Shown here piece after piece: positions 1 through 7,698 of a DNA stretch of 64,000 nt (position 1 is its first letter; each line of letters begins with the position of its first letter). Below the pieces are notes generated by a model. That model ran no database searches. It had not been told where the DNA came from and saw nothing but the letters and a program-made list of their open reading frames with translations. The position numbers and the translations under genes were made by a program. The stretch lies in contig JAEEXH010000002.1 of assembly GCA_016291435.1 (NCBI GenBank), positions 1 through 64,000 on the forward strand, given 5' to 3'. Source of the DNA: Oscillospiraceae bacterium. GTDB taxonomy: Bacteria; Bacillota; Clostridia; Oscillospirales; Ruminococcaceae.

Positions 1-3000
1 ATAGGTGCCGTCCGGCAGACCCTTGAACTCGGTCTCTGCGCCCTCGAAGGTGATCGTGGTGTCATCTCTGGTGACATCGGTCTTCTCGGTGCCGTTATCC
101 AGAACCTTGACCTTCTCAAGTGTAGTGCCGTCCTCGTCAGCCTTCACAAGCGTCAGCGTGAACTCTGCGGATGCCGGAGCGATCTTCGCGTTCTCGTCGA
201 TGATCTGCTTGCTGATGACGATATCGGAGATGTTGTCAGTGACGATGAGATTGCCGTTGCTGTCAACCGAAACACCGCCGGTGGTCTTGGTGGTCGGCTT
301 TTCGTTCTCGTTGTTCACAACCTTACCGTCCTCGATCCGGAATGTGATCGTGGTGACAACGGCGAAGCCGTCCGGTGCGGTGTTCTCCTCGAGCTCGTAT
401 GTGCCGTCCGGCAGACCCTTGAACTCGGTGTCAGCGCCCGTGAAGTTGATGATGCCGGTCTCTGCATCGTAAGCATCTGTCAGTTCAGTGCCGTCTGCGG
501 AAACCTTGACATTCTCGAGCGTTGCGCCTTCCTTGTCAGCCTTTGTCAGGGTCAGCGTGAACTCTGCGGGAGCCGAAGCTTCCTGTGCATTCGCGTCGAG
601 CGTCTTCTTGCTGACAAAGATGTCGGAGATGTTGTCGGTGACAATGAGCTTGCCGTTCTCTGCCTTGAAAGAACCGCCGTCCGTCTCGACTTCCTTTGCA
701 GTGACCTCGCCGTTTTCAACGTTGAAGGTCATGGTTGTGGTAACTTTCTGTGCGCCGTCCGGAGCTGCTGTCTCTTCCAGCTCATAGGTGCCGTTCGGCA
801 GACCCAGGAACTCGAACTCGTCGCTGGTGAAGGTGAGCTCATTCTTCGCGGCATCATAAGTGAAGCCCGGAGCGAGTCCATCCATACCATAGACAGTATC
901 GCCGATCTTGATCATGGTGCCGACCGAACCCAGCGTTCCGACCGCCTCCGTTGCCTTCAGGACGAAGGTTGCCGGTGCGGATGCAGGCGCTGCGCCGCCG
1001 CCGCTTGCGACCTGCTTGTTGAAGCCGATGGTCGAGACATTATCGGTAACGATCAGGTTGCCGTCTGTGTCGACCTCGACAGCGCCGGTGGTCGCGGTGA
1101 CCGGCTTATCGGTCTCAGTGTTCACGATCTCGCCGTTCTTGATCTTGAAGGTGATCGTGGTCACGACGGTGAAGCCGTCCGGTGCAGTGGTTTCCTCGAG
1201 CGTGTAGGTGCCGTCCGGCAGACCCTTGAACTCGGTATCCTTGCCTGTGAAGTCAATGTGATCCGCCGCGATCGTAAGCGTTTCTTCGTCTGCGCCGGAT
1301 ACCTTGACATTCGTGAGGGAAGCATCTTCGCTCTTCTTGGTGGACGCCTCCTCGGTCAGCGTCAGCGTGAACGATGCCTTTGCCGATGCTGTCTGAGACT
1401 TGCCGTCGAGTGTCTTCTTGCTGATGGTGATGTCGGAGACGTTGTCGGTGACAATGAGGTTGCCCTGTTTGTCAACGTCCACACCGCCGGTGGTCTTAGT
1501 GGTCGGCTTATCGGTCTCAGTGTTCACGACCTTGCCGTCTTCGATCCTGAAGGTGATCGTGGTCACGACGGTGAAGCCGTCCGGAGAGGTGTTCTCCTCG
1601 AGCTCGTATGTGCCGTCCGGCAGACCCTTGAACTCCGTGTTTGCGCCTGTGAAGTCAATGTGATCCGCTGCAATCTCAGAAGATTCTGCGCTGGAAACAT
1701 TGACATTCTCAAGCGTGGTGCCTGCCTTGGCAGGTGTCACGAGCGTCAGCGTAAACTCTGCGGGAGCGGATGCTTCCTGCGAATTCACGTCGAGCGTCTT
1801 CTTGCTGATGGTGATGTCGGAAATGTTGTCGGTGACGATCAGTTTGCCGGTGGTGGAGTCGATCGTGCCGTCTCCGTCGGTCACGGTATCCTTCGTAGTG
1901 ATCACGCCGTCTGCGACCTCGAATGTAAACGCGGTCGTAATTCTGCGTGTGCCGGTCGGAGATGCAGTCTCGGTCAGGGTGTACTCATCTGCGTCCGGCA
2001 GACCGATGAACTTGAAGCTGACACCGGAGATGGTGAGCAGGTTCTGCGCTGCGTCATAGCTGCTGCCGTCGCTGAGCTGACCCAGCTCATACACAGTGCC
2101 GTCGATCTCGATCTTCGTGCCTGCCTGTGCGAGCGTCTTGCCGCCCTGAGAGGTCAGGGTGAAGGTTGCGGGAGATGTTGCGGGCTGTGCGGTGCCGCCG
2201 CTTGCAATCTGCTTGTCGAGCTCGATCTCGGTGATGTCATCCAGGATGACAATGCCGTTTGCAGTGAGCTCAACCGCGCCGGCCGTGGTCGCGATGGTCT
2301 TTGTGGTGTCAACCTCGCCGCCTGCGACCGTGAAGGTGAAGACTGTCTGAACACCGGTTTCGGTCTCATTCTTCAGCTTCTGATAGCCGGTCGGTGCTGC
2401 GATCTCTTCAAATGTGTAGTCGCCGTCGGAGAGACCGGTGATCGAAGTTGCATTGCCCTTGAACTCGTATGCGCCTTCTGTCAGATTCTCTGCTGTCAGT
2501 GTCTTCTCGGTGCCGTCCTCGAGCTTCACGGTCACGCCGACCAGAGAATTCTTGGTCGCGTCAACCGGTGCCAGCTTGAAGGTTGCGGGGTTGGAAGCAG
2601 GAATCGCGTGCTTGTCGAGATCCGTCTTGCTGAGGGTGATGGTCTTCTGCTCTTCCTTCGCGTCCTTGACGGTGATCTTGTTCGACTCGAGCTTTACGAC
2701 CTCAACGTCGCCGTCAGTGATTGCGGTCACGGTAGAAGTATCGACCAGACCCTCTTCGGTCACGGTGAATGTGAATTCAGATGTGACCTCATAGCCCTTC
2801 GGCGCAACCTTTTCCTGGAGGATGTAGGTGCCAGCCTTCAGGCCGGTGATATCGGTGTCATTGCCGGTGAATTCAACATAGAACTTGCCTGCATGCTCGG
2901 TATCGCGCTGCACATCCTCAGGCTTCAGCGCTGTGCCGCCAGCGATGGTGATGCCGACCAGCTTATCGGGAGCATCCGCGATCAGATGGAAGGTTGCCTT

Positions 3001-6000
3001 CGCATCATCGCCTTCACCCTCGATCTGAGCATCCTGCAGGTCTCTCTTGCTGATGGTAATGGTCTTCGGGACTTCCTTCTCATCGAGAACGACGATTTCG
3101 CCGCCGCTGACATTTGCGGAGACAGTCTCGCCGTCGGTGACAGCCTTCACAGAAGATGTGTCAACCGAGCCGTCCGGAGCGATCTTGAACTCAAAGCTCG
3201 AAGTGGTCAGATAGCCCTTCGGTGCGGTTTGCTCCACGAGCGTATAGACCGTATCGGGAGCCAGACCGACGAATTCAGTGTCATTGCCGCGGAATTCGTA
3301 GAAATATCTGGTGCCTTCTGTCTTGAATTCTGCGCTGGGAACCTCATTGCCGTTGACGATCAGACCGCCGAAGCTGTCGATATCATCGGTGTAGAGGCGG
3401 AAGGTTGCCTGTGCCGCAGGGCCCTCACCCTCAATCGCATGATTCTGCAGGTCTCTCTTGCTGATGGAAACGGTGCGCTTGTCGAGCACGATAATGCCGC
3501 CGTCTTCACCCATCATCACTTCGCCGTCGGACTCTTCATCCACCACGCGCAGCTGACCGTCCGTATCCACTGCAAAGCGGAAATCGGAAGCAGTTGCATA
3601 GCCGTTCGGAGCAGTCTGCTCATGCAGCGTGTAGATGGTGGTGTTGTCATTCTTCAGGCCTGTGATTTCAGTGTTATTGCCTGTGAATTCATAATAGTAT
3701 ACCGTCTTTTCGCCCTGGGTCTCAGATTCGACAGCCGTGACAGTCTCGCCTGCGACGGTAATGCCGATCAGAGCATCCTCATTGCCTGCGTAGAGACGGA
3801 AGGTTGCGGGATTGTCAGAAGCGATCTCTGTTCTGGTGTAGAAATTCTGCTTGCTGACAGTCATAGACTTGGGACCTGCCTTCTTCGCATCAAAGACGGT
3901 CAGGATCTTGCCGGTTGCATCCACTTCTGCGTCGCCGGTTGTAGCCACATTGATCTCTGTGATCTTGCCCTCGTCATCGACAGTGAATGTCATGTCACTG
4001 ATTACTTCGTAGCCTTCCGGTGCAGCTTCCTCACGCAGCGTGTAGGTGCCTGCCGGGAGATCTTCGATCAGTGTGCTGTTGCCGTTGAAGACGCATTCAT
4101 AGGTCGTTGCACCGGTTTCGTCGTCGGTCACTTCCGCGAAGATTGCGCTTTCGCCGGCGACCTTGACGATTCCGGTCAGGTCGGTTTCGGAGATCAGCAC
4201 GAAGGTGACTTCGCCTTCTGCGATCTCGCCGCCGCCGACTGCCTTCTTCTCGATATACATCTTCTTGGTCTCAGGAGTCGAGTCATCCTCGTCCATAACG
4301 ACCATCTTCATGCCGGAGGTCACTTCGACCTTACCGTTTTCAACAACAATCACCTTCTCAGTGATCTTGCCGTTCTTGATGGTGAAGTTGAAATCGGTGA
4401 CTGCCTTGTAGCCGTTCGGTGCTGCTTCTTCATGCAGCGTGTAGCTGCCGTCTGCAAGACCGCTGATCTTGGTGCTGTTGCCGGTGAAGGTGTAGGAACC
4501 GTCCTCAGCAACCTGTGCCATGGTTTCAGCATTTTCCGCATCCACGGTGTCGCCGGTCAGCTTCTTGCCCGCGACAGTTGCGCCGACGAGCGAGCCGCCC
4601 TCTGCCGGGATCAGCTTGAAGGTAACAGCGTTCGAGGAGGGAAGCTGCTTGCCGCCCATGTCAGCCTTGTTGATGAAGATGCTCTTCTCGGGGATCTTGA
4701 CCATGTCCGCGAAGACATTGTGCCACTCACCGCCGGTGTTCTCAACATAGCCTGCGGAGCAGATCCAGCCGGTGCTCGTGCCGCCCTTTGCGCCGTTGGT
4801 CACAGAATCAGGATCCTTCACAAGGAAAACACCCGCGCTGGTGGAGATATCAACCTCCTTGAGGCTGTTCAGATTCCAGATGAGCTGCGGAGTCAGCTTC
4901 GCAAGGAACGCATTCTCCGGGTTGTCGATTTTCTGAGCATTCATGGAGCTCTGCGGAACTGCCGTATCCGGATCATCCGCATAATGATACAGGATATTGT
5001 CCAGCTTCGTCAGATGGACATATTCCGTGTCCACAAAATTGAACACGATGGTCTGACCCTCGTAGATCTCCAGCTCGAGATTCTGGCCGATATTAGTGCC
5101 CAGAAGTCTGACCAGCTCGTCGCCGTCAACGAAGATCGTTGCATCCTGAGGGAAGTCCGTGGTATCCAGCTTATACCTGGAAGCTTCCTTGTTCGTCGGG
5201 TACACGCTCACACTGGGCGTGTCCGCATAGGACGCGAGCTCATCCGACATGCTTGTCATATAGTCCGTCATGGACTTGATTCTGCCTGCGATCTCGCTTG
5301 CATCAGTCGGAATGATCTCAACCCAGCCGCCGTTGTTGGTCTGACGGTTAGGGTTCTCCAGAGCAACCATGTTGTCCGGGTCATCCGCATTCAGGATGTT
5401 ATCCGGATTCATGTAAACCGCATCAGGACCGCTGTGGCTTTCACCAATATTCAGCAGGCCAACCTTACCGGGGTCTTCTGCCTTGTAAACGGTCACATTA
5501 TCATTGTACTTCTTCTCGCCGTTGAACCCAACAATATGTCCGACCAGGAAGGAGCCGCCGGTCTCAGGTGTCAGGTCAGGCTCAATTGTAAAGCCGCCCT
5601 GCTCATAATAGTTTGCCGCGAAATTCGTCTGTGCGTGATTCAGCTTTGCGTATTCATCTGCAACGATGCCAAAGTACATTGCATCGCCGAGTACGCTTGC
5701 GTAGTTGTAATCACCCACCTCAGCCGGAGCTGTAAAATGAACCTTGTCCGAGATGTCCGTAACATGTGTTTCTTCATCTCTGGAGATGTTCTGCACATCC
5801 GCAGTTGCGAGCCAATCCGCTGTTGCAGCAGGAATTGCCATCAGTCTGCAATCCTTGTGGTTTACCGCATTCGCAACAGTGATCTCGTTGTCGCTGACCA
5901 CGAGATAAGGTGTAATGATCTCGGTGCCGCCGATTCGGTCGTGCGTTTCCTTGACTTGCTCGCCATCCAGCGAAAGCCAATGCGCCTCATGACCCGTCTG

Positions 6001-7308
6001 CACAACAATCTCTTCATCCGTGCCGTCAAGCTCTTTAAAATAGTATGTATTGGCCGATGTCTGGTGCTGAACCTCGACCATGATGTAGGTGTGCTTTGCA
6101 GGATCCAGCGTCACATTGTCATAGTCCACGCTGATCTTGTACTGCACGGAATCCTCGATGATTCTGACAGTCGTCGAAGCGCCGCTGCTTTCTTTCTCAA
6201 AGCGGTAGCAAGGGATCGAGTCGCTCGCCTTGCTTCCATCCTTGCAGTCCGCATAGGAGGTCAGCGACTCGCCCTCAGTCTTTGCGTGGTAGACACGATA
6301 GTCGATCTGCTGTGTTTCGAGGTCAAACTTGAACGTCTCACCGTTCGGCACGCCGTCCGCGTCGCAGCCGTTGATTGTAGAGAAGCCAAGTGTCGTTTTG
6401 CTGTTGTTCTTCGGATCGAAGGGCTTGATTGCCCAGCCGATCAGCTTACCCTTGCTGTCAGTCACAGTTGCAAGAACAACGTAGTTATACTGCGTGTCGT
6501 TCTGCAGCGGAGCCAGATTGCCCTCGTTGTCATAAACCTCAACATTCATAACAACGCCATCAATCGCCTGAACCTCAACCGTGTCATTATTATATACGAA
6601 GTTGCTCGATCTCTTGGTCAGGCTATTGGAGGGAATCAGATTCTTGCCTTCGATCTGATTCACTTTTGCGCAGCCGTTCTCAGCGATTGCGTCCTCCAGC
6701 GTCAGCGCAGCAGAGGGATCATTGTTCTTGATCACATACGCTTCAACTGATTCTGTATCAGGAACAGCCTCAATTTCACGGGTCACAGGAGTGCCCCAGC
6801 GATCGCCCGACGCAGTAACCGTCTTGCGGGGCAGCGCAGAGAATTTTTCACTCTTCCAATTCGACCCGCCGTCCAGATTGATCTCAATGAGCTGATAGCC
6901 GTCCCGGCTCTCGCCGATTTCAAAAATGTAATCGTAGTAGTACGTTGTGCCATACGGACCGTCAGGCTGATACTTTGCGTTTTCCACGTCCTTGCCGACT
7001 GCATGAACCAGCAGATAATAGGTGTTCGGATCAGTGGTAATCTCGACAGGATTGCCGCCCTCATCCGCAAACCCGATCTCGGCATAGAGGTCGTCCGCGC
7101 TCATGTACGCCGTAATCTGCGACGGAGGAAATGTGCCCCAGTCCCACGAATCATATCCAAGCGCGTCATGGTCAAGCGAGAAAACCGGCGAGGCCGCCGT
7201 TTCCGCCGTGACCGGCACCGTCAGCTCCATCGGAAGCCCGGTTCCCATCGCAAGGACAACGCCCGCGGCAGCACTCAGAAAGCGCTTGCCAAAGGTTTTT
7301 CCTTTCAT
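1..7308 (-). CDS. Giant SpaA-repeat surface adhesin, choice-of-anchor-A-like (partial, 3' end off window)
   Basis: Minus-strand frame open for 2436 codons from an ATG preceded by AGGGGAAGGTG; no stop before the window edge, so the ORF track missed it and shows only its shadows. The N-terminus is a signal peptide (MKGKTFGKRFLSAAAGVVLA). Residues of about 40-860 form a non-repetitive region whose middle (DAMYFGIVADEYAKL, later LIWNLNSLKEVDIS) resembles choice-of-anchor-A/collagen-binding adhesive domains; that match is tentative. From about residue 865 come twelve SpaA-like prealbumin-fold modules of 130-140 residues, each ending in a GLPDGTYxLEE..APxGY motif; the last is cut by the window. Lys (ISKKTLD) and Glu (LEE) positions fit intramolecular isopeptide crosslinks. 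Modules nearest the window edge are the most alike. Likely an exported, wall-attached stalk protein for adhesion; a C-terminal sortase signal would lie outside the window. No sortase gene is seen here. Confidence 0.85.
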   Translation of the reverse strand, partial: MKGKTFGKRFLSAAAGVVLAMGTGLPMELTVPVTAETAASPVFSLDHDALGYDSWDWGTFPPSQITAYMSADDLYAEIGFADEGGNPVEITTDPNTYYLLVHAVGKDVENAKYQPDGPYGTTYYYDYIFEIGESRDGYQLIEINLDGGSNWKSEKFSALPRKTVTASGDRWGTPVTREIEAVPDTESVEAYVIKNNDPSAALTLEDAIAENGCAKVNQIEGKNLIPSNSLTKRSSNFVYNNDTVEVQAIDGVVMNVEVYDNEGNLAPLQNDTQYNYVVLATVTDSKGKLIGWAIKPFDPKNNSKTTLGFSTINGCDADGVPNGETFKFDLETQQIDYRVYHAKTEGESLTSYADCKDGSKASDSIPCYRFEKESSGASTTVRIIEDSVQYKISVDYDNVTLDPAKHTYIMVEVQHQTSANTYYFKELDGTDEEIVVQTGHEAHWLSLDGEQVKETHDRIGGTEIITPYLVVSDNEITVANAVNHKDCRLMAIPAATADWLATADVQNISRDEETHVTDISDKVHFTAPAEVGDYNYASVLGDAMYFGIVADEYAKLNHAQTNFAANYYEQGGFTIEPDLTPETGGSFLVGHIVGFNGEKKYNDNVTVYKAEDPGKVGLLNIGESHSGPDAVYMNPDNILNADDPDNMVALENPNRQTNNGGWVEIIPTDASEIAGRIKSMTDYMTSMSDELASYADTPSVSVYPTNKEASRYKLDTTDFPQDATIFVDGDELVRLLGTNIGQNLELEIYEGQTIVFNFVDTEYVHLTKLDNILYHYADDPDTAVPQSSMNAQKIDNPENAFLAKLTPQLIWNLNSLKEVDISTSAGVFLVKDPDSVTNGAKGGTSTGWICSAGYVENTGGEWHNVFADMVKIPEKSIFINKADMGGKQLPSSNAVTFKLIPAEGGSLVGATVAGKKLTGDTVDAENAETMAQVAEDGSYTFTGNSTKISGLADGSYTLHEEAAPNGYKAVTDFNFTIKNGKITEKVIVVENGKVEVTSGMKMVVMDEDDSTPETKKMYIEKKAVGGGEIAEGEVTFVLISETDLTGIVKVAGESAIFAEVTDDETGATTYECVFNGNSTLIEDLPAGTYTLREEAAPEGYEVISDMTFTVDDEGKITEINVATTGDAEVDATGKILTVFDAKKAGPKSMTVSKQNFYTRTEIASDNPATFRLYAGNEDALIGITVAGETVTAVESETQGEKTVYYYEFTGNNTEITGLKNDNTTIYTLHEQTAPNGYATASDFRFAVDTDGQLRVVDEESDGEVMMGEDGGIIVLDKRTVSISKRDLQNHAIEGEGPAAQATFRLYTDDIDSFGGLIVNGNEVPSAEFKTEGTRYFYEFRGNDTEFVGLAPDTVYTLVEQTAPKGYLTTSSFEFKIAPDGSVDTSSVKAVTDGETVSANVSGGEIVVLDEKEVPKTITISKRDLQDAQIEGEGDDAKATFHLIADAPDKLVGITIAGGTALKPEDVQRDTEHAGKFYVEFTGNDTDITGLKAGTYILQEKVAPKGYEVTSEFTFTVTEEGLVDTSTVTAITDGDVEVVKLESNKITVKDAKEEQKTITLSKTDLDKHAIPASNPATFKLAPVDATKNSLVGVTVKLEDGTEKTLTAENLTEGAYEFKGNATSITGLSDGDYTFEEIAAPTGYQKLKNETETGVQTVFTFTVAGGEVDTTKTIATTAGAVELTANGIVILDDITEIELDKQIASGGTAQPATSPATFTLTSQGGKTLAQAGTKIEIDGTVYELGQLSDGSSYDAAQNLLTISGVSFKFIGLPDADEYTLTETASPTGTRRITTAFTFEVADGVITTKDTVTDGDGTIDSTTGKLIVTDNISDITISKKTLDVNSQEASAPAEFTLTLVTPAKAGTTLENVNVSSAESSEIAADHIDFTGANTEFKGLPDGTYELEENTSPDGFTVVTTITFRIEDGKVVNTETDKPTTKTTGGVDVDKQGNLIVTDNVSDITISKKTLDGKSQTASAKASFTLTLTEEASTKKSEDASLTNVKVSGADEETLTIAADHIDFTGKDTEFKGLPDGTYTLEETTAPDGFTVVTTITFKIKNGEIVNTETDKPVTATTGAVEVDTDGNLIVTDNVSTIGFNKQVASGGGAAPASAPATFVLKATEAVGTLGSVGTMIKIGDTVYGMDGLAPGFTYDAAKNELTFTSDEFEFLGLPNGTYELEETAAPDGAQKVTTTMTFNVENGEVTAKEVETDGGSFKAENGKLIVTDNISDIFVSKKTLDANAQEASAPAEFTLTLTKADKEGATLENVKVSADGTELTDAYDAETGIINFTGADTEFKGLPDGTYELEENTAPDGFAVVTTITFRIEDGKVVNNENEKPTTKTTGGVSVDSNGNLIVTDNISDIVISKQIIDENAKIAPASAEFTLTLVKADEDGTTLEKVKVLDNGTEKTDVTRDDTTITFEGAETEFKGLPDGTY

Positions 7309-7399: not shown

Positions 7400-7449
7400 G
7401 CAGCGCAGTGCTGAACCCACCGCTCTGCAAGCCCCCCCCGGGCGATCTG

Positions 7450-7479
7450 CTATCCCGAGTGAATACTGATACCTCTCAT
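7450..7479 (-). CDS. Candidate 9-residue leader peptide (MRGISIHSG) upstream of the adhesin
   Basis: A short reading frame of nine codons plus TAG, too small for the ORF track. It starts at an ATG preceded by a strong purine-rich ribosome-binding site (AGGGAAAGGGTGATTGAT). It lies inside the long leader of the adhesin mRNA, directly after a predicted pseudoknot and about 140 nt before the adhesin start. The product is unrecognised. It could be a regulatory leader peptide whose translation changes folding downstream, or a chance ORF; the good ribosome-binding site favours the former. Confidence 0.45.
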   Translation of the reverse strand: MRGISIHSG

Positions 7480-7499
7480 ATCAATCACCCTTTCCCTCT

Positions 7500-7546
7500 G
7501 CGGATGTCCTTCCTGTTCCGCACAGACACATCCGCGGTTCTGTGCG
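7500..7546 (-). promoter_or_regulatory. Predicted H-type pseudoknot in the adhesin leader RNA
   Basis: Stem 1 pairs CGCACAGA (7546-7539) with TCTGTGCG (7526-7519). Stem 2 pairs GCGGATGT (7535-7528), inside the loop of stem 1, with ACATCCGC (7507-7500). Both are eight perfect pairs. Loops of 3, 1 and 11 nt suit a coaxial H-type pseudoknot. The 3' strand of stem 2 abuts the ribosome-binding site of the 9-codon ORF, so folding could gate its translation. No known riboswitch class was recognised. Confidence 0.45.
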
Positions 7547-7669
7547 TGCAGCCGCCCTGATCAAAAGCGGCCATTCCTCGTCCCACCTGGTTTTGTTATA
7601 TTTCTGTGAGATATTACAGTCTGTATATCGTAAATGTCCTCTACTTCATCAGACTGCTCTATAAAGATT

Positions 7670-7698
7670 ATTATAGTCAAAAGTGGGCAAAAAGTCAA
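7670..7698 (-). promoter_or_regulatory. Sigma-A type promoter for the adhesin
   Basis: Minus strand TTGACT (7698-7693), a 17-nt spacer and TATAAT (7675-7670). Transcription would begin near 7663 and give an unusually long leader of about 355 nt before the adhesin ATG. The rest of the gap to 8039 is AT-rich, with no convincing gene. Confidence 0.8.

Follow-up and report, generated by a model that had tools for sequence, protein, structure and literature searches.

The 64-kb stretch of DNA analysed here (hereafter the window) carries on its minus strand an adhesin gene whose product combines a signal peptide, an N-terminal adhesive region and at least 11 SpaA (PF17802) repeats. Behind its sigma-70 promoter, transcription would start near position 7663, which gives the message a leader of about 355-366 nt and agrees with the earlier placement of the element under study in a long adhesin mRNA leader (Table 1). 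The leader opens with a hairpin, as by eye do the leaders of its relatives, and ~129 nt past the putative start it contains two interlocked helices, S1 and S2 (minus strand, 7546-7500), both perfect over 8 bp and connected by loops of 3, 1 and 11 nt, exactly as described in the initial annotation. A G-run (CGGGGGGGGC; 7430-7442, minus strand) is found in the part of the leader that separates the knot from the adhesin start, and antisense to the adhesin gene the plus strand holds an open frame of 1830 codons (1258-6750), probably a by-product of the repeat codon usage.

Table 1. Features of the adhesin gene and its leader in the window
Feature	Position	Strand	Basis or remark
Adhesin gene	1..7308	-	2436 codons within the window, extends past its edge
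Sigma-70 promoter TTGACT-17-TATAAT (11/12)	7670..7698	-	
5' hairpin CAGTCTG/CAGACTG near transcript start	7617..7656	-	leader folding
29-codon ORF MAAFDQGGCTHRTADVSVRNRKDIRRGKG, then stop, crossing the pseudoknot	7485..7574	-	predicted ORF
S1, 5' strand CGCACAGA	7539..7546	-	sequence pairing, simulation and flank folding
L1 (ACC)	7536..7538	-	
S2, 5' strand GCGGATGT	7528..7535	-	equivalent to CGGAYGC in relatives
L2 (G)	7527..7527	-	
S1, 3' strand TCTGTGCG	7519..7526	-	sequence pairing and flank folding
L3 (GAACAGGAAGG)	7508..7518	-	
S2, 3' strand ACATCCGC	7500..7507	-	equivalent to GCRUCCG in relatives
9-codon ORF MRGISIHSG, then stop, plausible ribosome-binding site	7450..7479	-	downstream of the knot

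When both strands of the window were scanned for H-type arrangements of perfect helix pairs of at least 8 bp each, this element was the single match, and no such pair arose in Markov simulations of 20 x 64 kb. The predicted fold of the leader likewise stands out against its shuffled versions (z -3.6; 0 of 100 shuffles as good). Does it belong to a class already described? Against Rfam 15, which includes preQ1, SAM-II and EAR, the whole window at gathering threshold returned only a tRNA, the window leader gave no match at E values up to 5, and 17 loci of relatives gave none either, in keeping with the earlier statement that no published class was recognised. No description of the element was found in the open literature, the coverage of which was incomplete, so that an earlier description is possible. 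EAR, the eps-associated RNA, is an antitermination leader RNA with a pseudoknot that precedes a long operon; the element described here is, by contrast, much smaller and is associated with other genes.

The initial annotation had suggested a covariance-model search upstream of surface-protein genes, and the combined searches yielded a total of 19 copies in 17 of the 30 genomes of the genus (Ruminococcus-like), all of them in leaders of signal-peptide adhesin-type genes. Similarity of the leader DNA itself was of little use within the genus, as it produced weak matches only (those inspected were mostly coding and none was a member), and a first contig scan using one protein produced no match. 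Homologues of the N-terminal region of the adhesin occur in genomes G010, G004, G029, G007 and G028, and the leaders in G010, G004, G029 and G028 contain interlocked helices in which S2 hardly varies (CGGATGC/GCATCCG) and S1 differs considerably. G003 and G022 were added by pattern searches, and the G022 copy precedes another type of adhesin; patterns restricted to S2 returned an excess of chance matches, yet pointed to G003, G022 and, in retrospect, G001a. A covariance model built from six sequences with S1 as its structure (R1) found three further copies in the genus (G004b, G020 and G027), each before a signal-peptide surface protein, and recovered the held-out copy G004a at a score just under those of the training copies. 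Eight more emerged once genes matching PF20597, the choice-of-anchor A adhesive domain, had been collected and their leaders read. Four of them are G001a, G016, G019 and G025; the other four (G002, G006, G015 and G001b) form a second group whose S2 reads GGACGC/GCGTCC, one pair in G002 being G-U. The final model, R3, contributed one extra copy, G023, from a genome without a PF20597 match.

Several other candidates were not accepted. The leader in G007 (L031) forms a hairpin with an AGACGGA loop and shows no convincing S2, and nine R3 matches (L208, L209, L213, L215, L216 and L218-L221) were coding or lacked a leader context. In 398 genomes of the family, searched with stricter filters, no credible copy lay outside the genus; the candidate in G083 was rejected, since by eye it resembles coding sequence and it does not sit in an adhesin leader. 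No matching element was seen either in the leaders of adhesin homologues from beyond the genus, and the RNA family is apparently genus-specific. The leaders of those homologues (L033-L044, L117, L119, L123, L126, L130 and L133) are mostly short and knotless and carry a 5' hairpin, an organisation that may be simpler and ancestral. Within G005, a small choice-of-anchor A gene is preceded at ~20 nt by TGCGGATG/CATCCGCA, accompanied by a weak S1 (GAGGCAT/ATGCTTT); this locus (L169, G005:C29) was not counted and is a possible divergent copy.

Covariation was assessed on 18 aligned copies, all from one genus and partly related: 82.9% of cells pair, and 11 of the 18 pairs vary on both sides (39 such cells). 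The covariation score of 0.323, reached in none of 500 shuffles, compares with a shuffled mean of 0.165 and with at most 0.171 for slid versions; because the sequences are related, the shuffle counts are not probabilities, and the weight rests on the slide control and on the recovery of held-out copies. S1 differs in sequence between copies and is re-formed by compensatory changes, some of its helices being bulged. All copies retain the GGA/UCC core of S2 apart from a G-U pair in G002 and one in G023, but a U-A pair is exchanged for C-G in four copies, a compensatory change in a helix once thought invariant. Only in the window is C-G replaced by U-A at the final S2 core pair, and G016 and G025 retain an S2 of 6 bp. 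The initial annotation had named a lack of compensatory change in homologous leaders as grounds for rejecting the fold; the opposite is seen, and both helices show such changes. The count of G-U versus A-C combinations as an indicator of the coding strand (24 versus 17) was uninformative. That the helices are a chance pair of inverted repeats, or a protein-binding site at the DNA level with no role in RNA, has a next to negligible probability: genes of the genus often contain CGGATG/CATCCG pairs, but the chance expectation for the interlocked arrangement is about 0, its placement after the promoter is constant, and the compensatory changes in the comparative data already contradict such a reading.

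Do S1 and S2 form together? When the flanks of the first 10 copies were folded with S2 kept unpaired, S1 formed directly around S2, leaving an L1 of 2-4 nt and an L2 of 0-2 nt. Loops vary in length and sequence among copies, yet in almost every one L1 and L2 stay short and L3 has sufficient length. By a rough energy estimate that charged a generic penalty for pseudoknots, the knot equalled or bettered the best nested fold in 9 of the 11 copies tested. As judged from these alignments and folds, the element is an H-type pseudoknot, whose loop lengths fit simultaneous folding and allow coaxial stacking. The earlier alternative, in which S1 and S2 would be mutually exclusive states of a switch, draws on the fact that each helix is stable by itself; it is weakened, and is now highly improbable, in that the two helices share no bases and the loop lengths stay within the range for folding at the same time.

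The distribution of conserved positions bears equally on ligand sensing, another function that had been suggested. In the H-type riboswitches (preQ1, SAM-II and SAM-V) the loops form the binding pocket and loop nucleotides are kept. The adhesin-leader element shares with them its compact overall fold and its position in a 5' leader, as would be expected of a small-molecule riboswitch of this kind, but its loops are the variable part and its S2 helix the conserved part, neither a conserved expression platform (terminator) nor an Rfam match accompanies it, and a riboswitch is very unlikely; a loop pocket in particular is disfavoured because S2 is conserved while the loops drift.

What, then, surrounds the knot? 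All 19 leaders have a sigma-70 promoter matching at 11-12 of 12 positions, 105-200 nt upstream of S2; they are 247-397 nt long, and the knot mostly lies 85-228 nt from the adhesin start. In 14 of the 19 an ORF of 8-12 codons, nearly always with a clear ribosome-binding site, stands upstream of the knot; the five without a clear short upstream ORF are the window copy, G004a, G001a, G020 and G023. From the ORF stop to S1 there are 15, 17, 17, 17, 17, 18, 20, 20, 22, 22 and 26 nt in 11 leaders, and 49, 51 and 59 nt in the other three. The peptides (MKNKVYDDRPVT, MNNNVYDDCPVT, MRLYNVYQRPDT, MKIYNLFMRPVT, MKYFNLYMRPVT, MLREMSIRGPS, MLRSLSIRGPSQ, MGIDELRNGPAP and MGKYLTKGPAP) fall into groups with recurring C-termini, RPVT, RGPS and GPAP, each directly before the stop codon. 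By eye, a GC-rich hairpin often surrounds that stop codon, and part of the peptide conservation may therefore be conservation of RNA. The regular spacing between ORF stop and knot favours a coupling of leader translation to folding of the knot. The earlier proposal of a translation-coupled regulator retains a plausible link to translation, but the conserved small ORF lies upstream of the knot rather than downstream and is non-canonical in the window. The 9-codon ORF downstream of the window knot, to which that coupling had been ascribed, does exist with a plausible ribosome-binding site, but its coupling is unsupported; neither it nor the 29-codon ORF is present in the leaders of relatives.

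Taken together, these features point, with a confidence only slightly short of even, to an uncatalogued, apparently genus-specific family of cis-acting H-type pseudoknots in adhesin leaders, which would be gated by translation and act through transcript elongation or mRNA stability. A ribosome translating the small ORF would terminate or stall, opening the hairpin around the ORF stop codon; seated there immediately upstream of the knot, it would couple leader translation to knot folding, and the knot would in turn set the quantity of full-length adhesin mRNA that is made or that survives, via elongation of the transcript or stability of the message. More tentatively, a recurring peptide of 8-12 residues and the knot downstream of it might form a new class of translation-gated switch that jointly governs completion or retention of the giant adhesin messages, a device common to several adhesin families of one genus. 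The window copy would have lost its short upstream ORF or exchanged it for a longer one that crosses the knot, and its control may for that reason be altered; the 29-codon ORF is a possible divergent replacement of this type.

The proposed arrangement bears similarities to leaders of ribosome-mediated attenuation (the trp/ilv type), among them the Corynebacterium ilvB-II motif, a leader regulated by a uORF (PMC10272879), in that, in most copies, a short leader ORF lies just before a structure, near the promoter and ahead of the regulated gene. Unlike these, however, the adhesin leaders have no terminator/antiterminator pair (the window leader lacks an intrinsic terminator, and a laxer scan of the 19 leaders gave no conserved match), their structure is a pseudoknot, their targets are adhesins, their peptides are without a run of one codon, and the window copy has no canonical ORF. 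A pseudoknot stimulating frameshifting or readthrough was rejected, as in most leaders the stretch between knot and adhesin start is interrupted by in-frame stops, the frame being open back past S2 only in G004b, G016 and G025.

The main rival to translation gating is a trans-acting binding protein. The knot would then be the site at which a putative RNA-binding regulator of adhesin mRNAs (a repressor, an activator or a processive antiterminator) is recruited, with the uORF of secondary importance, a possibility that is doubtful and yet finds several points of agreement: with the geometry fixed, S2 keeps the sequence GGAYGC/GCRUCC and S1 and the loops drift, as expected of a recognition site; the element is common to adhesin genes with different N-terminal families; and antiterminators typically act on long transcripts. 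Two candidate regulators are nevertheless at odds with the data. CsrA/RsmE is one, since csrA (PF02599) is missing from all 30 genomes, with positive controls in E. coli, B. subtilis and T. maritima. The other is LoaP, which binds a UNCG-tetraloop hairpin in leaders that also have a terminator (PMC12691694). Its dfn-type antitermination leaders resemble those described here in having a structured element before very long transcripts in Bacillota, but neither the hairpin nor the terminator is conserved among the adhesin leaders, the UNCG hairpin being missing in 15 of 19, including that of the window, and at inconsistent places in the remainder.

It is also conceivable, if unlikely, that the folded knot is a device for mRNA stability which protects the very long adhesin messages by impeding 5'-to-3' decay, either by itself or together with a ribosome halted upstream of it. 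Its location 105-200 nt into long messages, its strong predicted fold, the nearby Shine-Dalgarno sequence and short ORF, and the lack of a terminator would all suit that role, but the conservation of S2 and of the peptide C-terminus exceeds what a generic roadblock needs.

Under the preferred, translation-gated reading, the adhesin-leader pseudoknot is probably an unrecognised expression switch. Structured mRNA leaders with a short ORF are of a known kind; the present combination and its set of genes appear to be undescribed. It adds an uncatalogued family of structured RNA whose covariation is clear and whose gene set is defined: adhesins of gut bacteria resembling Ruminococcus, about the regulation of which little is known. 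With peptide and knot within ~100 nt, it also offers a compact system for studying how translation of a leader is coupled to the folding of a pseudoknot.

Two further observations concern neighbouring adhesin-type leaders. By eye, a second common element recurs in the leaders of G002:C38, G015:C28, G006:C72 and G001:C39 (L170, L171, L179 and L172), consisting of a GGTC...GACC pairing that encloses the 5' hairpin, together with a hairpin of the form GCCGGACATGC-N-GCATGTGCCGG; among these leaders only that of G001:C39 also contains the pseudoknot. The leader of G008:C44 (L180), on the other hand, carries an ORF of the MLR...S group (MLRIFTTELASG before its stop codon) and no recognisable pseudoknot, which suggests that ORF and knot can be lost separately.
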